Shown in pieces: positions 25,376 through 37,016 of a DNA stretch of 37,735 nt. The stretch is taken from assembly GCA_017466215.1 (NCBI GenBank), contig JAFTUO010000004.1, forward strand, positions 1 to 37,735. Reading direction: 5' to 3'. This DNA comes from Oscillospiraceae bacterium (GTDB taxonomy: Bacteria > Bacillota > Clostridia > Oscillospirales > Oscillospiraceae). The stretch's first letter is position 1; every line of letters starts with the position of its first letter. Both the position numbers and the translations under genes were made by a program. Below the pieces are notes generated by a model, which was given only the letters and a program-made list of their open reading frames with translations, ran no database searches and was not told where the DNA came from.

Positions 25376-25419
25376 AAAAAGAAACGACAATCCTCTGTCG
25401 AAAATTGTCGTTTCTTTTT
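25376..25419 (-). terminator. terminator of the tmRNA gene
   Basis: A 16-bp perfect stem (25376-25391 with 25404-25419, 12-nt loop) begins at the encoded CCA end of the tmRNA; read on the minus strand its far arm ends in CTTTTT. Confidence 0.8.
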
Positions 25420-25767
25420 GGTGGAGCCGAGGGGAATCGAACCCCTGTCCGAAAGCAACTTGGAAAGAAATTCTCCGGGTGCAGTTTGTTATTTACATTC
25501 CCTTATCCCGGCGGGAACAAACACCCTTCGGGACTTAGTAGCTTCATTATGCATGGTGCGGGCAAAGCTTACCGCACGCACGTTCTCCACTTCAATCACA
25601 CCCGAGCCCGGCTCGTGGACCTTCCGGGGCGGATGGGCGCCTAATTAGGCAGCCAGAGCAACAGTATTGTTGTCAGTTAAATTTAAAAAGTTACCCGTTT
25701 TATCGTGGTCAGGTGCCACGACCCGCTATTCCAGCCTCACTACCCCCGTCGAAACCAGTACGGCCCC
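25419..25767 (-). ncRNA. ssrA: transfer-messenger RNA (tmRNA)
   Basis: This is a one-piece tmRNA of about 349 nt that rescues stalled ribosomes and tags the unfinished protein. The 5' end GGGGCCG (25767-25761) pairs with CGGCTCC near the 3' end (25429-25423, one G-U) to form the acceptor stem, and ACCA is encoded. The 3' half carries the T-arm GGGGTTCGATTCCCC, and GTTTCGACGGGG near the 5' end is the usual conserved block. By alignment with the Bacillus layout, the resume codon is GAC at 25674 and the tag is DNNTVALAA then TAA (25645-25674), preceded in the product by the tRNA-borne alanine. smpB lies two genes upstream on the same strand. Confidence 0.95.
25423..25440 (+). repeat. tmRNA-side att-like repeat
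   Basis: GGAGCCGAGGGGAATCGA, the functional end of ssrA, duplicated at 24137-24154. Confidence 0.7.
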
Positions 25768-27941: not shown

Positions 27942-29218
27942 TGGCGCAGCGTGTTATTTTCCACGTGGATGCCAATTCCGCGTTTTTAAGCTGGTCGGCA
28001 GCCTATCGGGTCAAGGTGCTGGGCGAAACCGAGGACTTAAGAGATATCCCATCGGTGGTAGCCGGGGATAAGGAGTCCCGGCACAGCATTATCCTTGCCA
28101 AAAGCGCACCGGCGAAGAAATTCGGCATTCAGACCGGCGAGCCGCTGTTTCAGGCCTTAGAAAAATGCCCGCAGCTGAAGATTGTACAGCCGGACTATCC
28201 GCTGTATGTGGAGGCAAGCCGTCATTTTGTGGAAATGCTGCGGCAGTTCAGCCCTCAGGTGCAGCAATATTCTATCGACGAGGCCTGGGTGGATATGACC
28301 GGCACGGAGCGCCTCTTCGGAAGTCCCCGATTGGCCGCGGAAAAGATGCGCCAGCGGATCAATGACGAATTGGGCTTCACCGTCAATATCGGCATTTCCA
28401 GCAATAAGCTGCTGGCAAAAATGGCTGGCGATTTTGAAAAGCCCAATAAGGTACACACCCTTTTCCCGGAGGAAATGGAGGAGAAGATGTGGCCGCTGCC
28501 GGTGCGGGATCTGTTTTTGGTAGGTCCGGCCACCGAGAAAAAACTGAAAGTATACGGTATATACACAATCGGCGACCTTGCAAAGACAGATTTAGCCCTC
28601 CTGCGCAGGCGATTGGGAAAGCACGGCGAGACCATCTGGCACTTCGCCAACGGCCGCAATGCTGACGCAGTAACCCCGGAGCCTCAGGAGAATAAGGGCT
28701 ACGGAAATTCCGTTACAACGCCCAAGGATGTGATAAGCACCCAGCAGGCCCATCAGGTACTGCTGAGTCTGTGTGAAACGGTAGCCGCCCGGATGCGCAA
28801 GGACGGCAAATGCGGCAGCTGTATCAGCATCCATCTGCGCACCAACGACTTTTCTCACGCATCCCATCAGACGGTGCTTCTGGGCGCTACAAACATCACC
28901 GGCGAGATCTTTGAGGCGGCCTGCCGTGTCTTTGACGAGATGTGGGATCGGGTTACGCCACTGCGGCAGCTAGGGGTGCAGATGACCCGGCTTTCCACCG
29001 AGCCGTACCAGCAATACGACCTGTTTTCCGGGATGAGTCCGGAGCGCTACGAGCGGAAGATCAAGCTGGACGAAACGGTGGACGCTCTGCGGGATAAATT
29101 CGGCGAGGAAATCATCCGCCGGGCGAAATTTGCCCAGGATCCTGACTCCCATATGGCCGGCGGCCTGGACAAAGCCCGACGTACCGGCATCACAAAACCC
29201 GTTCCCGATGAATTTTAG
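27941..29218 (+). CDS. dinB: DNA polymerase IV (Y family)
   Basis: This encodes a 425-residue translesion polymerase. The catalytic residues are in FHVDANSAFLSW and QYSIDEAWVDM. NIGISSNKLLAKMAGDFEKP and the little-finger domain (about 240-350) follow. The C-terminal YDLF segment resembles a beta-clamp binding peptide (QYDLFS). AGGAGGG precedes the ATG, which overlaps the previous stop. The LexA-like site upstream suggests DNA-damage induction. Confidence 0.95.
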   Translation: MAQRVIFHVDANSAFLSWSAAYRVKVLGETEDLRDIPSVVAGDKESRHSIILAKSAPAKKFGIQTGEPLFQALEKCPQLKIVQPDYPLYVEASRHFVEMLRQFSPQVQQYSIDEAWVDMTGTERLFGSPRLAAEKMRQRINDELGFTVNIGISSNKLLAKMAGDFEKPNKVHTLFPEEMEEKMWPLPVRDLFLVGPATEKKLKVYGIYTIGDLAKTDLALLRRRLGKHGETIWHFANGRNADAVTPEPQENKGYGNSVTTPKDVISTQQAHQVLLSLCETVAARMRKDGKCGSCISIHLRTNDFSHASHQTVLLGATNITGEIFEAACRVFDEMWDRVTPLRQLGVQMTRLSTEPYQQYDLFSGMSPERYERKIKLDETVDALRDKFGEEIIRRAKFAQDPDSHMAGGLDKARRTGITKPVPDEF

Positions 29219-29220
29219 GG

Positions 29221-29249
29221 TAGAAAATCCAACAAAAGCGGTGTATAAT
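29221..29249 (+). promoter_or_regulatory. probable promoter for the Nudix gene
   Basis: Perfect -10 TATAAT (29244-29249), 17 bp after a weak -35 TAGAAA (29221-29226), right after the dinB stop. Confidence 0.5.
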
Positions 29250-29272
29250 ATCCTTAAAGGGGAGGCGATGCT

Positions 29273-29740
29273 GTGGCAATCGTAAAATTTTACCGGGGTG
29301 ACCCGAAAAACGCACCCAGGACCACGATGCCGGCCCATCTGGGCGCTAATGTGATCCTGACCTGCCAGGGTAAGCTACTGCTGGAAAAGCGCCGGGACAG
29401 CGACACCTGGGGCTTGGTCGGCGGCGGTGTGAAAAAGCACGAGACCGAGCTGCAGGCCATTACCCGGGAAATCTACGAGGAGCTTGGCATCCGCGTGAAG
29501 AAGGAGCAGCTGCGCAAGCTGGGCGTCTACGGTGAGCCGGGACGCATTGCCGCATATCAGGACGGCAGCGTATGGCGAATGGTAATCGTGGTATTCGGGC
29601 TGGATCTGGAAGAAGAGCCGGCACTTCGCATCAGCGCAGAGTCCAGAGAACTCCGCTTTTTCAGCAGGGAAGAACTAGAAAATATAGACATTGTGATCAC
29701 CCATAGCGATATTGTGGAAGATCACTTTCTGAACGCATAA
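29273..29740 (+). CDS. Nudix hydrolase
   Basis: This encodes a 155-residue Nudix protein that cleaves nucleoside diphosphates linked to another group. The full Nudix box is present (G-x5-E-x7-REIYEELGI, about residues 52-74, starting at GGVKKHETE). Substrate type (damaged dNTP, ADP-ribose or other) cannot be told. It starts at a GTG: AAAGGGGAGG lies seven bases upstream, and the nearby ATG at 29268 is in another frame. A terminator follows at once. Confidence 0.9.
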   Translation: MAIVKFYRGDPKNAPRTTMPAHLGANVILTCQGKLLLEKRRDSDTWGLVGGGVKKHETELQAITREIYEELGIRVKKEQLRKLGVYGEPGRIAAYQDGSVWRMVIVVFGLDLEEEPALRISAESRELRFFSREELENIDIVITHSDIVEDHFLNA

Positions 29741-29744
29741 CACG

Positions 29745-29771
29745 CCGCCCTGAAGTTCAGGGCGGTTTTTT
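29745..29771 (+). terminator. terminator after the Nudix gene
   Basis: A 10-bp perfect GC-rich stem (CCGCCCTGAA and complement) is followed by TTTTTT. It insulates the OLE operon from upstream transcription. Confidence 0.92.
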
Positions 29772-29805
29772 ATAAATTCTGCGATAAAAAATTTTTAATG
29801 AATAC

Positions 29806-29834
29806 TTGTATATTCATAAATAATGTGATAATAT
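29806..29834 (+). promoter_or_regulatory. promoter of the OLE RNA operon
   Basis: -35 TTGTAT (29806-29811), 17-bp spacer, extended -10 TGA then TAATAT (29829-29834). The surrounding 60 bases are very A/T-rich. The predicted start is about 29841. Confidence 0.75.
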
Positions 29835-29840
29835 ACAATT

Positions 29841-30445
29841 TGACGGTGCAGTATCCTAGTCAGAACGGCCTCTTCCAGGTAGGGCCTAAAAATCCTATGA
29901 AGGGCACATCGATGAAGTCCCTGGTGTCTGCTTTTTACGCCCAGTTTAGGGTGGATGCTGGGGGTTAAGGATTCCGGGCGCGCTCCAATGGCATGGAGCA
30001 TACGACCCAGTTTCCGTGGAGACCGGAACCTTGTGCGACGAAGTTGAGAACTCCAATTCGTGGAAGCCTCTTCGCGTACGAATCCGGTAAGAACCTGCAA
30101 AGTGGTGCACAGAATCGTGTGCTACGTGCAGCGTAGCCTGCCTTGAGTGAGTATGTTGGGAAAGATGACAAGCATCTGCGTGCTTTGGCCATAGCATCAG
30201 GTGATAGCGCTTCTGGAAATCATCCTTGCAAAAGAGGCTAAGATTTGGTTTGTTCTGCAGTGGAAATCACCTAGGCTGTCGTAACTGGGCAAACAGGGGA
30301 TTACAGTACGGACTCAGTGGCAATCGGGTAGTCAAGTTGGCAACGCTTGAACATACGGATCAAACGGAAACGGCCTGCGCGGCAACGGCAGGTTCTGTAT
30401 GGGGAAAACCAACCCGACCTAAGCCGTAAGATTTATCCTGTTTGC
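29841..30445 (+). ncRNA. ole: OLE RNA (Ornate, Large, Extremophilic RNA)
   Basis: About 605 bases between a clear promoter and oapA hold no plus-strand gene with a ribosome binding site. The size matches OLE RNA (about 610 nt in Bacillus halodurans), and so does the setting: it lies directly before oapA and upstream of dxs-tlyA-nadK-argR-recN, the gene company known for OLE. Local hairpins include GCTACG/CGTAGC (30121-30137), GCTCC/GGAGC around 29985 and CCTGC/GCAGG near 30380. In B. halodurans OLE forms a membrane-bound particle with OapA (and OapB, OapC) needed for growth in cold, in ethanol and at raised Mg2+. The identification rests on context and size; ends are approximate. Confidence 0.9.
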
Positions 30446-30468
30446 TACCGTCTCATTTTAACATATTA

Positions 30469-30481
30469 AGGAGAAATTCCT
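30469..30481 (+). promoter_or_regulatory. small hairpin over the oapA ribosome binding site
   Basis: AGGAG (30469-30473) can pair with TTCCT (30477-30481) across a 3-nt loop, covering the binding site directly before the GTG start. Confidence 0.35.
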
Positions 30482-31066
30482 GTGTCTAAGTCCGACCCAA
30501 GCACCGCAAAAAAACAAAGAAACAAGACCGTCCGCTGGGTAGTTACCATTTTCTTGGTGACGATTTTTGTCTCCGGCCTGATATCTCTGATCTCAGAGGA
30601 GGTTATGGCCAGCAGTTCTATCTATGTGGCGTTTTTGATCTTGTTTATCATCATTCTGATCGGTATTTTGTTTGATATAGTCGGCGTTTCCGTTACTTCT
30701 GCGGTTGAAGCGCCTTTTCACGCAATGGCCGCCAGAAAGGTGCCCGGTGCAAAAGAGGCGATCAATCTGCTTCGGCAGGCTGAAAAGGTCAGCTCCATCT
30801 GCAATGACGTGGTTGGTGATATTTGCGGCGTCGTTTCCGGCTCTGCATCTGCCACCATCGCAGCGCAGGTTCTGCAGCATTTTGAGTTTTCCTGGCCCCG
30901 TCTGATCATTCTGGTGATGTCTGCGCTGGTAGCTGGCCTCACTGTCGGCGGCAAGGCCATCGGCAAGACCTTTGCAGTTAATTCCTCTACCACCATTGTC
31001 CACTCCGTGGGCAAGCTTATCTACTGGCTGCACAATTTCCCGCAGCTGGGCAAGAAAAAGAAATGA
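30482..31066 (+). CDS. oapA: OLE-associated membrane protein OapA
   Basis: This encodes a 194-residue membrane protein. Hydrophobic helices lie at about residues 18-38, 46-68 and 132-152, with basic ends (KKQRNK at the start, KKKK at the end) suited to RNA contact. CNDVVGDICG gives a DxxxD motif (Asp109, Asp113), the conserved feature of OapA, mutation of which in B. halodurans causes Mg2+ sensitivity. In that species two OapA copies bind one OLE RNA and hold it at the membrane. It starts at a GTG with AAGGAG eight bases upstream, right after the OLE RNA, and precedes dxs by 19 bases. Confidence 0.9.
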   Translation: MSKSDPSTAKKQRNKTVRWVVTIFLVTIFVSGLISLISEEVMASSSIYVAFLILFIIILIGILFDIVGVSVTSAVEAPFHAMAARKVPGAKEAINLLRQAEKVSSICNDVVGDICGVVSGSASATIAAQVLQHFEFSWPRLIILVMSALVAGLTVGGKAIGKTFAVNSSTTIVHSVGKLIYWLHNFPQLGKKKK

Positions 31067-31085
31067 AGATAGGTAGTGTATCGTT

Positions 31086-32930
31086 TTGAATATTTTAGAG
31101 AAAATCCACGGCCACAGCGATCTGACCGCCCTTGACGCAGACCAGCGCCAAGAGCTTTGCGCGCAGATCCGGCAGTTTCTCATTGATAACATTTCCAAGA
31201 CCGGCGGCCATCTGGCCTCCAATCTGGGTGTGGTTGAGCTGACTGTCGCGCTGGAGACCGTATTTGATACCGAAAATGACCGTCTGGTTTTTGATGTTGG
31301 TCATCAGTCTTATGTCCATAAACTGCTGACCGGCCGCCAGGCGGATTTTGCGCAGCTGCGCCAATTTGGCGGCATTGCCGGCTTCCCCAAGCCCTGCGAA
31401 AGCAATACCGATGCCTTTGTTGCCGGCCACGCATCCAATTCCGTCTCCATCGCCCTGGGTATGGCCCGTGCCAGAACGCTGCTTGGCGAAGATTATGACG
31501 TGGTTGCTGTGATCGGCGACGGCGCTGCCACTGGCGGTATGGCCTACGAGGGCCTGAATGATGCTGCTGACAGCGGTGAGCCGATGGTAGTCATCCTCAA
31601 CGACAACGAGATGTCTATCGACCGCAATGTTGGCGGCTTTGCGCGGCATTTGTCCCGCCTGCGTACCAAGGAAAAATATCTCGGTATGAAGGCACATTAC
31701 CGCAGCTTTCTTACCGATCTTCCCGGCGGCAGGTTTATTTACCGTGTAACCAGCCGGATGAAGGATTGGCTCAAGCGGGTGCTTTTGCCCACCACCATCT
31801 TTGAAAATATGGGCTTTACCTATCTTGGCCCGGTAGATGGCCACGATCTGGAGAGCTTAACGTCGCTGCTGCAGTATGCCAAGGAACTGCGAAAGCCCGT
31901 GCTTGTCCACGTGCTGACCCAAAAGGGCAAGGGGTATAAATATGCAGAAAGCAGTCCTGCACAGTTTCACGGCATCGGCTGCTTTGATCCGGAATCCGGC
32001 AAAGCCGCAGGCAAGGGCAGCAGCACATTTTCTGACACCTTCGGCGATCAACTGACCGCTCTTGCCCGGGAAAACCCGCGCATTTGCGCCATCACAGCTG
32101 CTATGCCCGGCGGTACCGGCCTGCTGAAATTTAAGGATGAATTCCCCAAGCGGCTTTTTGACGTGGGTATTGCCGAGGAACACGCAGTCTCTATGGCCGG
32201 CGGCCTTGCAAAGCAGGGGATGATCCCTGTTGTTGCGGTGTATTCCACCTTCCTGCAGCGCGCTTATGACCAGCTTTTGCAGGACATTGCAATGCTGAAG
32301 CTGCACGTTGTCTTTGCTGTTGACCGGGCAGGTCTGGTTGGTGAGGACGGCGAGACTCACCACGGCGTTTTTGACGTTGGTTACCTGCGGCAGATCCCCG
32401 GTATGACCGTTCTGGCGCCTGCCAGCTGCGAGGAATTACGGCAGATGCTGCGCTGGGCTGTGAATGTATGCGATGGCCCTGCGGCCATCCGTTACCCCAG
32501 GGGCGGCGACGGACCTTACCATAGCGCCCGCTGGAGCAGCAGCAACTGTGTGCTTACCCATCGAGAGGGAAATAGCTGCGCCATAATTACCTACGGAACA
32601 CTCATCAATCAAGCTCTGGAAGCTGCGGATATCCTTGCTCAGCAGGGGATAGAGGCGAAGGTCATTCGTTTGACGGCCTTAAATCCGCTGCCCGAGGATG
32701 CGCTGCGTGAAGCACTTGCGGATATCAGCAACGTTTTTGTGGTGGAGGAGACCTGCGCAGGCTCCGGAATCTCCGCCGCGATCAGTCACCAGATTTGTAA
32801 ATGCACCGCTCTGGATCTGGGCGGCGAATATGTTACCCACGGCAGCATTCGGCAGCTGTATCAAAAGCACGGTTTGGATGCAAGCTCCATCGCACAAAAA
32901 ATTCAGGAGGTCCTGGTCTGTGAAAATTAA
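31086..32930 (+). CDS. dxs: 1-deoxy-D-xylulose-5-phosphate synthase
   Basis: This encodes a 614-residue thiamine-diphosphate enzyme that condenses pyruvate and glyceraldehyde 3-phosphate, the first step of the MEP isoprenoid pathway. The cofactor motif GDGAATGGMAYEGLNDA, the conserved glutamate in GIAEEHAVSMAGG and the C-terminal transketolase domain are all present. The start is a TTG with AGGTAGTG upstream; the N-terminus from it matches the family. Its last 11 bases overlap tlyA. It lies directly after ole-oapA. Confidence 0.96.
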   Translation: MNILEKIHGHSDLTALDADQRQELCAQIRQFLIDNISKTGGHLASNLGVVELTVALETVFDTENDRLVFDVGHQSYVHKLLTGRQADFAQLRQFGGIAGFPKPCESNTDAFVAGHASNSVSIALGMARARTLLGEDYDVVAVIGDGAATGGMAYEGLNDAADSGEPMVVILNDNEMSIDRNVGGFARHLSRLRTKEKYLGMKAHYRSFLTDLPGGRFIYRVTSRMKDWLKRVLLPTTIFENMGFTYLGPVDGHDLESLTSLLQYAKELRKPVLVHVLTQKGKGYKYAESSPAQFHGIGCFDPESGKAAGKGSSTFSDTFGDQLTALARENPRICAITAAMPGGTGLLKFKDEFPKRLFDVGIAEEHAVSMAGGLAKQGMIPVVAVYSTFLQRAYDQLLQDIAMLKLHVVFAVDRAGLVGEDGETHHGVFDVGYLRQIPGMTVLAPASCEELRQMLRWAVNVCDGPAAIRYPRGGDGPYHSARWSSSNCVLTHREGNSCAIITYGTLINQALEAADILAQQGIEAKVIRLTALNPLPEDALREALADISNVFVVEETCAGSGISAAISHQICKCTALDLGGEYVTHGSIRQLYQKHGLDASSIAQKIQEVLVCEN

Positions 32931-33723
32931 GAAAAGATTGGATGTCCTCCTGACGGAAAATGGCTTCTGCGACAGCCGCTCCAAGGCGCAGGCCATCATT
33001 ATGGCCGGCCAGGTCTATGTGGACGGCCAAAAGGCGGACAAGCCCGGCATTTCCTACGAGGAAACCGTGGCTATTGAGGTCCGCGGCGAAAGCTGCCCCT
33101 ATGTCAGCCGGGGCGGACTTAAGCTGGAAAAGGCCCTGCGGGACTTTGGTGTTGATCCTACCGGCTTTGTCTGCAGTGATTCCGGTGCATCCACCGGCGG
33201 TTTTACTGACTGCCTGCTGCAGCAGGGCGCAAGCAAGGTCTTTGCCATCGACGTGGGCTACGGTCAGCTGGACTGGAAGATCCGCAGCGACCCCCGCGTG
33301 GTGGTTATGGAGCGCACCAACATCCGCTATGTTACGCCGGAGGATCTGGGCGAAGCTCTGGATCTTTCCGTTATTGACGTAAGCTTCATTTCCCTGAAGA
33401 TCGTTCTGCCCGCTATCAAGGCACTTTTGAAGCCCAACGGCCAGGTGCTTTGCCTGATCAAGCCCCAGTTTGAGGCAGGGCGGGAGAAGGTAGGGAAGAA
33501 AGGCGTTGTTCGCGAGCCTGAGACCCATATTCAGGTACTGGATGATTTCGTGAAGCTGGCGCAAAGCCTTAATTTTACCATTCTCGGCCTGACTTTCTCT
33601 CCCGTGAAAGGGCCGGAGGGAAATATTGAATTTCTGGGGCATCTGACCCTGGCTGACCGGGAAGGCATTACGCCGGATACTGCCCAGGTCGTTAGCGATG
33701 CCCACACAGCACTGAAGGGGTGA
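32920..33723 (+). CDS. tlyA: TlyA family rRNA 2'-O-methyltransferase
   Basis: This encodes a 267-residue protein with an S4 RNA-binding domain (about residues 1-60) and an FtsJ-like methyltransferase domain containing DSGASTGGFTDCLLQ. The characterised mycobacterial homologue methylates 16S and 23S rRNA cytidines; the older name is haemolysin A. It starts at a GTG with AGGAGGT eight bases upstream, inside the end of dxs. A longer frame to 32698 lies within dxs and is rejected. Confidence 0.93.
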   Translation: MKIKKRLDVLLTENGFCDSRSKAQAIIMAGQVYVDGQKADKPGISYEETVAIEVRGESCPYVSRGGLKLEKALRDFGVDPTGFVCSDSGASTGGFTDCLLQQGASKVFAIDVGYGQLDWKIRSDPRVVVMERTNIRYVTPEDLGEALDLSVIDVSFISLKIVLPAIKALLKPNGQVLCLIKPQFEAGREKVGKKGVVREPETHIQVLDDFVKLAQSLNFTILGLTFSPVKGPEGNIEFLGHLTLADREGITPDTAQVVSDAHTALKG

Positions 33724-33728
33724 AACGT

Positions 33729-34589
33729 ATGAAAAATGTCATATTAACGCCCAATCCCTATCGGGACAGAGGCTTTCAGACTGTGCGCGAAGCCAAGCGG
33801 ATTCTGGAGGAATCCGGCGTTTCCTGCAAGGTCTGCCTGCCTTTTGAAGTGGACAGTACATTTGTTTTACCCAATGATCTGCTTTTTTCCCGCCTGGAGA
33901 ATCAGATCCATCATTGCGATCTGGTGATCTGCTTCGGCGGCGACGGTACGATCCTGCATATGGCAAAAACCGCCACGAAAGCCGGCGTGCCGATCCTCGG
34001 TGTCAATATCGGCACTATGGGCTTTATGGCCGAGCTGGAATCCACCGAGCTGGAGCAGCTTCGCCGCCTGGCGTCGGATAACTATACCATCGACAGCCGT
34101 CTGATGCTGGATGTGATCGTCCAGCGACAGCAGGACATCATCTTCCACGATATCAGCTTAAATGACGTGGTGGTAACCAAGGGCGCTGTGGCGCGGATTA
34201 TGAATCTGAGTGTGGAGTGCGACGGCGTGGAGGCCGTTTCCTTCGGCGGAGACGGCGTAATCGTCGCGACGCCCACCGGCTCTACCGCTTACAGTTTGTC
34301 CGCCGGTGGCCCCATCATCGAACCGGAGACGGACAGTATGCTGATCACACCCATTTGCGCACACGATATCGTCAGCCGGTGCATCGTTACCTCCGGGAAA
34401 CGGGTGATCACCGTGAATATGCGCAACAACACAAAACGAAACGCATTTTTAAGCGTTGACGGCGGAAAAGCCTTTCGCCTCAATCCCGAGGATAAGGTAA
34501 CCGTCCGCAAATCCAAATTGGAAACCAAGCTGCTCCGGTTAAAGGATCGCAGTTTTTATGACGTTGTCAATATGAAGTTCAGAAAATGA
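33729..34589 (+). CDS. nadK: NAD kinase
   Basis: This encodes a 286-residue enzyme that phosphorylates NAD to NADP. The GGDGT motif (residues 70-74) and the NDVVVTKG and GDGVIVATPTGSTAYSLSAGGP segments are intact. The ATG at 33729 has AAGGGGTGA upstream; the in-frame GTG at 33720 is inside that site. Its end is ten bases before argR. Confidence 0.96.
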   Translation: MKNVILTPNPYRDRGFQTVREAKRILEESGVSCKVCLPFEVDSTFVLPNDLLFSRLENQIHHCDLVICFGGDGTILHMAKTATKAGVPILGVNIGTMGFMAELESTELEQLRRLASDNYTIDSRLMLDVIVQRQQDIIFHDISLNDVVVTKGAVARIMNLSVECDGVEAVSFGGDGVIVATPTGSTAYSLSAGGPIIEPETDSMLITPICAHDIVSRCIVTSGKRVITVNMRNNTKRNAFLSVDGGKAFRLNPEDKVTVRKSKLETKLLRLKDRSFYDVVNMKFRK

Positions 34590-34599
34590 GGTGGAAATT

Positions 34600-35052
34600 A
34601 TGAAGAGCCAAAGACAAGCAAAAATTATGGAGATCATCTCCAACAGAGATATTGAAACCCAGGAGCACCTGCTGCTGGAGCTGAATAAGGCAGGTTTTCG
34701 CAGCACCCAAGCTACCATTTCCCGGGACATAAAGGAGCTGCGGATCGTTAAGGAGCTGACCAATTTCGGCACATACCGCTATACCGCCGCCACCAGCGAG
34801 GTTTCCGGTACATTTTCCAGCAAGCTGAACACCATTTTCCGTCAGTGCATCACCCGCTATGACTATGCAATGAATATGGTGGTTATCCATACGCTTCCCG
34901 GCCTGGCATCTGCCGCCGCATCTGCTGTGGATGCAATGAATATGAGCGTTGTTGTGGGCACTTTGGCCGGCGATGACACCGTGTTTATCGTAATGCGGGA
35001 TATGAACGCTGCCGCAGCTTTCTGCGGTGAGATCCAGAATCTGCTGGACTAA
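34600..35052 (+). CDS. argR: arginine repressor ArgR/AhrC
   Basis: This encodes a 150-residue hexameric regulator of arginine synthesis and breakdown. The winged helix contains STQATISRDIKELRIVK, and the C-terminal domain has GTLAGDDTVFIV, the arginine pocket. GAGGTGG overlapping the nadK stop precedes the ATG at 34600. Its place before recN is conserved in Firmicutes. I saw no ARG box in this window. Confidence 0.95.
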   Translation: MKSQRQAKIMEIISNRDIETQEHLLLELNKAGFRSTQATISRDIKELRIVKELTNFGTYRYTAATSEVSGTFSSKLNTIFRQCITRYDYAMNMVVIHTLPGLASAAASAVDAMNMSVVVGTLAGDDTVFIVMRDMNAAAAFCGEIQNLLD

Positions 35053-35073: not shown

Positions 35074-36720
35074 ATGCTGAGCCTTCTGCATATTGAGAAT
35101 ATTGCGGTCATCGAGCGGGCGGAAATCTCCCTCGGCCGTGGTTTTCACGTTCTCACCGGTGAGACCGGTGCCGGTAAATCCATCCTGATCGACGCCATTT
35201 CTGCCATTTTGGGCGAACGCTCCTATCGGGATATGATCCGTACCGGGGCAGACAAAGCCTCTGTCCGGGCGATTTTTACAGACGTGCCGGAATATCCCTG
35301 GTTTGAGGAAAACGGCGTAGAGTACGACAGCGAGGTCGTCATCCAGCGGGATATCTACCTGGACGGCAGAAATAACTGTCGGGTCAACGGCACGCCGGTT
35401 ACCGTTACCATTTTGCGCAAGCTGGGCATCCAGCTGATCAATATTCACGGTCAGCACGATTCTCAATCGCTGTTTGACGAGAACAATCATCTGCGTTTTC
35501 TGGATGATTTTGCCGAAAATGCCCCGCTTCGTGATACATATGCGGAAAAATATGCTGCTGTGGATTCCTTAAATAAGGAAATCGAGCGTCTGTCTATGGA
35601 CGAGGGTGAGAAGCTGCGCAAGCTTGAAATGCTGAAGTATCAGATTGCCGAGATCGAAAAGGCTGAGCTTGAAGCAGGGGAGGATGAGACCCTGGAAGAT
35701 CGGCGCAAGGTGCTTCAGAATGCTGAAAAGCTGTCTGACGGCCTGAACGGTGCTGTTGAGAGCCTTTACGGCTCAGACGACACGGACGGCGCAATTTCCC
35801 TGCTTAGCAACGCCCAGCACGAGCTTGCCCGGCTGTCGCGCTACACCGATACCTTTGCCGAATTGCAGGAAACGCTGACGGATCTGATGTACAGGATCCA
35901 GGATGCAGCGGATGAACTGCGATCCCAGTGGGACGAGCTTTCCTATTCCGGCGACGAATTGGAGCGGATCGAGGCCCGTCTGGATGTGATCCACCGCCTG
36001 CGGCGCAAATACGGCGCAGACTGTGCTGAAATTCTGGAATACCTGGAAAATGCCCGCAAAGAATTGGATGAGATCGAATTCTCCGACGATCATCTGGACA
36101 AGCTAAAGCGCAAGCTTCTAAAGGCTGAGAAAGAGGCTTGGGATGCGGCCTATGCCCTGCGTGACAGCAGAATTGCGGCTGCTGAGAAGCTGTCTGCCCG
36201 AATTCTTGACGAGCTTTCCCAGCTGGATATGCCGAAGGTACAGTTTTCCTGCGTATTTACCGAGCTGGAATTGACTGCGAACGGCGCTGACAGCGTGGCA
36301 TTCTATATGTCCGCCAATGCCGGCGAAGCTCTGAAGCCTATGAGCAAAGTCGCATCCGGCGGCGAATTGGCCCGGATTATGCTGGCCATCAAGAATGTGC
36401 TTGCCGAGCAGGACCAGGTTCCCACACTGATCTTTGACGAGGTAGATACCGGTGTTTCCGGACGCGCCGCTGTCAAGGTGGCTGAAAAACTCCACAGTAT
36501 TGCCGGTAAGAAGCAGGTGCTTTGCGTTACACACCTGCCCCAGATCGCGGCGAAGGGCGACAATCATATGCTGATCTCCAAGTCCGAGCGGGACGGCCGT
36601 ACTTATACAACGGTTACACCGCTTGACCGAGAGGGGAGAAAGCAGGAGCTTGCCCGGATCATCGGCGGCGCCAACATTACAGAAACTACACTCAAGAGTG
36701 CAGAAGAAATGCTGCAGTAA
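35074..36720 (+). CDS. recN: DNA repair protein RecN
   Basis: This encodes a 548-residue SMC-like ATPase that gathers at double-strand breaks. Walker A GETGAGKS is near residue 30. A long coiled coil fills about 160-360, and the C-terminal half has the signature VASGGELARIMLA and Walker B LIFDEVDTGVSG. GGGAGGAG precedes the ATG. It closes the OLE operon. No hairpin follows before the next promoter 11 bases on. Confidence 0.96.
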   Translation: MLSLLHIENIAVIERAEISLGRGFHVLTGETGAGKSILIDAISAILGERSYRDMIRTGADKASVRAIFTDVPEYPWFEENGVEYDSEVVIQRDIYLDGRNNCRVNGTPVTVTILRKLGIQLINIHGQHDSQSLFDENNHLRFLDDFAENAPLRDTYAEKYAAVDSLNKEIERLSMDEGEKLRKLEMLKYQIAEIEKAELEAGEDETLEDRRKVLQNAEKLSDGLNGAVESLYGSDDTDGAISLLSNAQHELARLSRYTDTFAELQETLTDLMYRIQDAADELRSQWDELSYSGDELERIEARLDVIHRLRRKYGADCAEILEYLENARKELDEIEFSDDHLDKLKRKLLKAEKEAWDAAYALRDSRIAAAEKLSARILDELSQLDMPKVQFSCVFTELELTANGADSVAFYMSANAGEALKPMSKVASGGELARIMLAIKNVLAEQDQVPTLIFDEVDTGVSGRAAVKVAEKLHSIAGKKQVLCVTHLPQIAAKGDNHMLISKSERDGRTYTTVTPLDREGRKQELARIIGGANITETTLKSAEEMLQ

Positions 36721-36759: not shown

Positions 36760-36765
36760 ATCTTC

Positions 36766-37016
36766 AACGCGATGATGGGAAGAAGTAAGCGATCCGTTTC
36801 CCGCCAGAGAGCTGCCGGTCGGTGCAAGGCAGTGGGGAAATACGCCGAAATACCTCCCGGAGCGGCTTCCTTGAAATTGCAGTAGGGGAGGACGGGCGCG
36901 CCCGAGACAGCGCGAAGCGTTATTGGACGCTATGAGGTTTGCATCGTGAGGTGCAAATAAACCAGAGGTGGTACCGCGTATTTTACGCCCTCTGTCCGTA
37001 AGGACGGAGGGCGATT
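36766..37016 (+). promoter_or_regulatory. tyrosine T-box leader with terminator/antiterminator
   Basis: This leader senses uncharged tRNA(Tyr). The T-box AGAGGTGGTACCGCG (36964-36978) is followed by a 12-bp terminator stem (36986-36997 with 37002-37013, loop GTAA, one G-U). Stem I starts near GATGATGGGA, with GAAGAAGTAAG as the 5' side of the specifier loop. The specifier is most likely UAC (Tyr) at 36851-36853, just before the TCCC that pairs back to GGGA; another TAC at 36841 is possible. The gene it controls, tyrS, confirms the amino acid. Confidence 0.95.

Follow-up and report, generated by a model that had tools for sequence, protein, structure and literature searches.

OLE RNA, complete in length, and the membrane protein OapA that goes with it were found side by side behind a single recognised promoter at the head of a dxs operon in a genome from a gut-anaerobe lineage of the Oscillospiraceae. 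The reading favoured here, at a probability of roughly 0.7, is that ole and oapA stand under this one promoter as a cassette that can drop out in genomes with an MpfA-type protein, with the promoter staying in place. It is about an even bet that the cassette, lying between a nearly genome-unique promoter and dxs, was lost several times among the relatives and only beside MpfA, the promoter being the scar. If so, the relatives would form a natural swap series, a membrane device of RNA and protein being exchanged for one made of protein alone. The window, meaning the whole 37,735-nucleotide stretch of DNA that was analysed, is contig C51 of a metagenome-assembled genome (MAG) of 1.56 Mb in 93 contigs, 83% complete. 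The features of the locus are as follows.

29806..29834 (+): promoter of the ole-oapA-dxs operon, read from the sequence as TTGTAT, a 17-bp spacer and the extended -10 TG.TAATAT
29827..30467 (+): OLE RNA, span of the Rfam model (434.2 bits, covariation); the transcript would start near 29841
29907..29921 (+): probable 5' part of the k-turn region (OapC-bound in H. halodurans), placed from the published description
29960..29970 (+): probable J5/6 side of the k-turn region
30380..30387 (+): probable P13 loop (OapB site), at the tip of the last long hairpin
30482..31066 (+): oapA, GTG start, a membrane protein of 194 aa whose DxxxD motif is DVVGD
31086..32930 (+): dxs (TIGR00204, 691 bits)
32920..33723 (+): tlyA (TIGR00478, 286 bits), with a probable start
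33720..34589 (+): nadK (Pfam NAD kinase domains)
34591..35052 (+): argR (TIGR01529, 133 bits)
35074..36720 (+): recN (TIGR00634, 557 bits)

OLE, OapA and their promoter

The original prediction, which had named OLE RNA, OapA and the downstream series dxs-tlyA-nadK-argR-recN from the letters of the DNA, held for all three; two outcomes that would have refuted it, a missing OLE match and a protein unlike OapA, did not occur. An Rfam scan of 29000-31500 matched OLE (RF01071) at 29827-30467 on the forward strand, scoring 434.2 bits where the gathering score is 50 (E 1.4e-125), the copy covering model positions 1-616 untruncated, and 14 control genomes gave no OLE match. The 194-residue protein is OapA, with DVVGD at residues 109-113, of which D109 and D113 are invariant in all 33 aligned OapA sequences, and Pfam and NCBIfam agreed with the gene names downstream. 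On the 5' side the locus is flanked by two genes, one of the NUDIX type and the other DNA polymerase IV-like. The same Rfam scan also gave a HOTTIP_3 match at 30821-30905, set aside as chance (E 0.31). Three RNA families reached their gathering thresholds in the window, namely OLE, a tmRNA gene at 25419-25767 on the reverse strand (164.9 bits) and a T-box leader at 36763-36995 on the forward strand, 3' of recN (122 bits).

The structure of the RNA is evidently under selection in this clade, since the double changes among its pairs exceed those of every shuffled and every slid version of the alignment. In 80 distinct complete copies, from the genus and some farther relatives, one or more double changes were seen in 83 of the 155 model pairs for which the window copy has both partners; 200 shuffles averaged 49 such pairs and never exceeded 56, and sliding the partners gave no more than 51. 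With the Rfam pairs mapped on the MAFFT alignment, standard pairs fill 88% of cells versus 82% in shuffles, and the window copy itself forms 134 of its 155 pairs. Over half of its columns (348/641) are at least 95% identical among the 80 copies. Three conserved blocks may correspond to published elements, the first two to the k-turn region that OapC binds in H. halodurans (PMC9723947), and the third to the P13 loop; their lowest column identities among the 80 copies are 0.675 (29907-29921, with a mean identity to the window copy of 0.96), 0.975 (29960-29970) and 0.96 (30380-30387). Unlike the Rfam consensus, the window copy carries a 21-nt insertion at 30048-30068.

Fourteen bases, containing AAGGAG, separate the end of the OLE match from the GTG of oapA. 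The protein is probably a helical one with a CNNM-like fold. Its AlphaFold2 model is all-helical (mean pLDDT 79, pTM 0.69), and the four best PDB matches of that model are CNNM/CorC membrane domains, at E values from 6.7e-3 to 2.1, none reaching 0.001, with a TM-score of 0.43 for the best. Pfam CNNM was matched weakly in 27 of the 33 OapA sequences with E values no higher than 1, the best being 8.6e-7 and the window protein falling below the cut-off at E 0.0089, and a PDB sequence search with OapA gave nothing useful. The likeness of OapA to CNNM was already published (PMC11332333). OapA shares a CNNM-like membrane fold with the MpfA/CorC/CNNM Mg2+ transporters; unlike them it bears the DxxxD motif and, in a Pfam scan, neither a CBS nor a CorC_HlyC domain.

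The promoter that the original prediction had assigned to the RNA was borne out at the level of sequence, with -35 TTGTAT at 29806-29811, a 17-bp spacer, TG at 29826-29827 and -10 TAATAT at 29829-29834, and from these positions transcription would start near 29841, as had been proposed. The pattern TTGTA-N13..19-TRTGNTA lies upstream of 62 of the 80 OLE copies, and a looser one, TTG...TRTGN[TA]A, for which lengths of 25 or 26 nt and no others were permitted, upstream of 77, every one of them 25 nt long. The stricter form TTGTATAT-N10-TRTGNTA occurs once in the window genome, at the ole promoter, and 11 times in ten chosen whole genomes, five with OLE and five without, where nine occurrences lie at ole or dxs; a reversed control pattern had no occurrence in the same ten. 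Of the remaining two, one is close to where a contig ends in G055, a genome in which OLE begins at the edge of another contig, and one is elsewhere in G078. Since 9 of the 11 matches are at ole or dxs, and all eight true absences described below retain the promoter, it is all but confined to this operon and persists without ole-oapA.

At the -35 position the box CTTGTATATT is conserved well past a -35 hexamer and forms the imperfect dyad ATAC-TT-GTAT. The box may resemble half of the Bacillus GntR operator. Were the cassette-swap reading true, CTTGTATATT would be the target of an operon-specific regulator.

As to whether the window copy works, a claim of the original prediction, the evidence supports it indirectly: the covariation in 80 copies and the conserved promoter are consistent with a functional RNA, whose transcription and activity are predicted. 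An implied rarity of such a copy did not hold, as OLE in uncultured gut Bacillota was already reported, with 2,822 Bacillota hits, in PMC11332333. The host was rightly judged an ordinary anaerobe rather than an extremophile, in view of the host-gut origin of the relatives of its OapA; the best of these among named genomes are MAGs of Oscillospiraceae and other Clostridia, three of the 80 listed being Candidatus Faecousia, and many came from gut samples of goat, yak, sheep, deer, water buffalo, rabbit or chicken.

The window copy belongs to the already known OLE class. It resembles the OLE/OapA of Halalkalibacterium halodurans in size, in its match to the full Rfam consensus, in having oapA with DxxxD directly 3' and in heading a housekeeping cluster, a position published for OLE generally, and differs in its gut-anaerobe lineage and in that the incomplete window genome gave no match for OapB or OapC. 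Uncultured gut hosts are shared with OLE variants 1 and 2, which are commonest in the TANB77 and RF39 gut clades (PMC11332333); unlike those variants, the window copy spans model 1-616. Half-length matches in the genus (model 278-595; G017, G042, G044, G051 and G083) were considered as a short variant and rejected, all five lying at contig ends.

For OapB and OapC, the window genome gave no match in its 83% complete assembly, in which infA likewise had none. An OapB candidate was recognised in 44 of 101 genomes of the genus (21 of the 28 good ones), called so because of its size and its position between map and infA at the relative locus L072, where infA is its neighbour. The map gene and a KOW domain there are putative assignments made by eye; Pfam and NCBIfam give the candidate no family name, and a PDB sequence search with it gave nothing useful. 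OapB is described in PMC9723947 as an 11-kDa protein with a KOW domain, encoded in a translation operon. No count is given for OapC because PF01248 matches mix OapC-type and YlxQ-type proteins; of the ten such loci looked at, six are next to rpsL, one is by infB/nusA and three had no assignment.

Absence of ole-oapA and presence of MpfA

Across the 101 genomes of the genus, OLE was found in 72 and OapA in 75, and the 71 that have both have them on the same contig, in agreement with the near-complete co-occurrence already published. The four genomes with OapA only have contigs that end inside OLE (G004 and G025, where blastn detected an OLE remnant) or inside oapA (G005 and G048), and the one with OLE only, G089, has it on a 3,904-bp contig that ends inside OLE. 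In 71 genomes oapA adjoins ole, and the five exceptions are all at contig ends. Neither was found in 25 genomes. A dxs search divided these into 17 without a true dxs, which were therefore not counted as OLE losses, and eight with dxs (G001, G035, G059, G060, G062, G065, G067 and G073).

In all eight the order dxs-tlyA-nadK-argR-recN is intact, and an OLE-type promoter, in which TTG through to the first -10 bases again spans 25 nt, lies 37-138 bp upstream of dxs. The NUDIX gene is still upstream in G001 and G059, about 220-245 bp from dxs, and was not found in the upstream stretch fetched for the other six. An inverted repeat was seen by eye in the short promoter-dxs leader of G001 (L166 4500-4742) and G059 (L168 6940-7159), on the reverse strand. 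Two of the eight, G060 and G062, both good genomes, have no match to the OapB candidate although infA is present, and an rpsL-linked L7Ae match is also absent, G060 having none at all and G062 a single one linked to nusA/infB; the loss of all four parts is possible in these two.

In other genera, eight OLE-lacking dxs loci were examined, leaving out G108, without a dxs match, and G208, with a partial one. The promoter pattern lies near dxs in G135, G227 and G240 and farther up in G203 (262 bp) and G238 (161 bp), and is absent at the loci of G200, G246 and G109, G200 having a similar sequence by eye. Where relatives outside the genus have OLE beside dxs, the pattern is at OLE in three of seven. 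With these mixed results, retention is clear in just two further genera (g36 and g67). The loss of ole-oapA with retention of the promoter is not described in those parts of the literature on OLE with OapA-C, MpfA, promoter/operon and gut hosts that were consulted.

The absence of OLE is associated with MpfA. The marker of MpfA, the CorC_HlyC domain, was found in 27 of the 101 genomes of the genus: in all eight true absences, in 13 of the 75 with OapA and in 6 of the 17 without dxs. Neither G089 nor the window genome, both of which carry OLE, has it. The full set of CNNM, CBS and CorC_HlyC domains is present in each of ten proteins scanned, six from OLE-lacking and four from OLE-bearing genomes, and some other MpfA-type proteins are truncated by contig ends. 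Uncorrected for kinship, the contrast of 8/8 with 13/75 has a Fisher p of 5e-6, and that within the good genomes (4/4 versus 4/23, leaving out G058, which has the marker and no dxs) a p of 0.004.

The same contrast holds in the family, where the marker is present in 8 of 44 OLE-bearing and in 104 of 106 OLE-lacking genomes, absence of OLE being mostly unconfirmed against dxs across the 106; two OLE-lacking genomes thus have no marker. This set of 150 genomes, for which a completeness of at least 90% was requested, includes the window genome (83%), and its membership was partly reconstructed, with totals that agree with both tallies. All eight genera that hold both OLE states, at 3-4 genomes each, differ in the same direction (sign test 0.008), and in four of them an OLE-bearing genome has the MpfA marker too. 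The anticorrelation of OLE and MpfA as such was already published (PMC11332333).

It is possible, though doubtful, that OLE and MpfA are not functionally equal and each instead track some further factor, for instance habitat or the type of genome. The evidence is a correlation, and some genomes carry both; against this reading, two different MpfA classes were recognised by eye in separate OLE-lacking lineages, and the eight genera repeat one contrast. A cross-rescue between OLE and MpfA is mentioned, as unpublished work, in PMC12265935.

Loss, gain and the role of OLE

Kinship was addressed with a tree of dxs, tlyA, nadK and argR in 80 rows, those bearing OapA being scored as OLE-bearing, and this tree requires five changes of OLE state. 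An independent-pairs test gave 4 pairs on the starred branches, of which about 2.7 pointed the expected way, none the opposite way and 1.3 were ties; this is not significant because the pairs are too few. When the fitted MpfA rates were kept in simulation, all eight OLE-lacking tips had MpfA in 2,091 of 20,000 draws. Making OLE loss dependent on MpfA improved the likelihood model (LR 16.2), and none of 240 null simulations, with draws restricted to 12-30 MpfA tips, reached this value, the maximum being 11.1. The fitted model allows no regain of OLE, and the number of state changes does not tell gains apart from losses.

Loss is the simpler reading. An alternative, that repeated transfers brought ole-oapA into the interval between promoter and dxs, is considered improbable. 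It draws on the presence of OLE in just 44 of the 150 family genomes, on parsimony counts that give no direction and on the finding that for just 31 of 52 copies does the closest OLE neighbour also rank in the top three by operon proteins. It is opposed by the distances between OLE copies, which track those between the operon proteins (Mantel r 0.77, none of 2,000 permutations as high, in 52 of the 80 copies), and by OLE adjoining dxs in five other genera (g36, g55, g59, g67 and g68). As the operon proteins are linked to OLE, the Mantel result leaves room for transfer of the whole operon.

Under the cassette-loss reading, OLE and OapA would be transcribed from the single promoter at the head of the dxs-tlyA-nadK-argR-recN operon, and the RNA would fold, dimerise and sit in the membrane with OapA as a CNNM-like multi-helix protein. 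The particle may help to control the balance of divalent metal (Mg2+) and related stresses, OapA possibly transporting the metal and the RNA filling the role of the CBS and CorC domains of MpfA-type transporters. Where an MpfA-type protein is present the whole cassette could then be lost, which would bring the promoter directly before dxs. The membrane location, the Mg2+ phenotypes and the CBS/CorC analogy come from the literature, and PMC12265935 reports a polycistronic transcript in H. halodurans. That OLE takes the part of the CBS/CorC_HlyC domains is a published proposal, and the biochemical job of OLE was still described as unknown after nearly 20 years in PMC11332333. The close relatives with and without OLE offer matched natural pairs for testing the proposed equivalence of OLE-OapA and MpfA, and the surroundings of the window copy provide a fine-grained natural test of the exchange.

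It is quite improbable that OLE instead serves chiefly as a long regulatory leader for the dxs operon, acting in cis on the genes downstream. OLE does lie between dxs and its sole recognised promoter, which the OLE-lacking relatives keep before dxs. However, two genomes of the family, G107 and G213, have OLE and dxs on separate contigs, the absences remove oapA too and not dxs, and a membrane location with trans-acting partner proteins was published for OLE in H. halodurans (PMC12265935).

Contig ends at OLE

Contigs that carry OapA often stop at OLE, 17 of 75 ending in oapA or at most 655 bp upstream of it, two of them inside oapA. Excluding those two, 15 of 73 do so, which is 6.0 times the rate elsewhere (39 in 1,137 bin-visits, p 2e-8) and 3.6 times that in the other upstream bins (25 of 434). 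OLE blocks common to co-resident species may break the assembly graph. Through this excess, and the 17 further genomes that have neither OLE and OapA nor a true dxs, an assembly artefact could be suspected behind the eight absences, with no real exchange for MpfA, but this is highly improbable and already contradicted, for in all eight dxs-recN and the upstream sequence are on one contig with a promoter-dxs gap of at most 138 bp.

The excess of contig ends in or at OLE does mean that surveys of MAGs under-count the RNA and can yield false short variants; such surveys should be read with the warning that they overstate the absence of OLE and may take contig ends for short OLE forms. Two different oapA loci were observed in one genome of the genus (G043:C114 and G043:C193), which may represent two species, since the bin is 6% contaminated.
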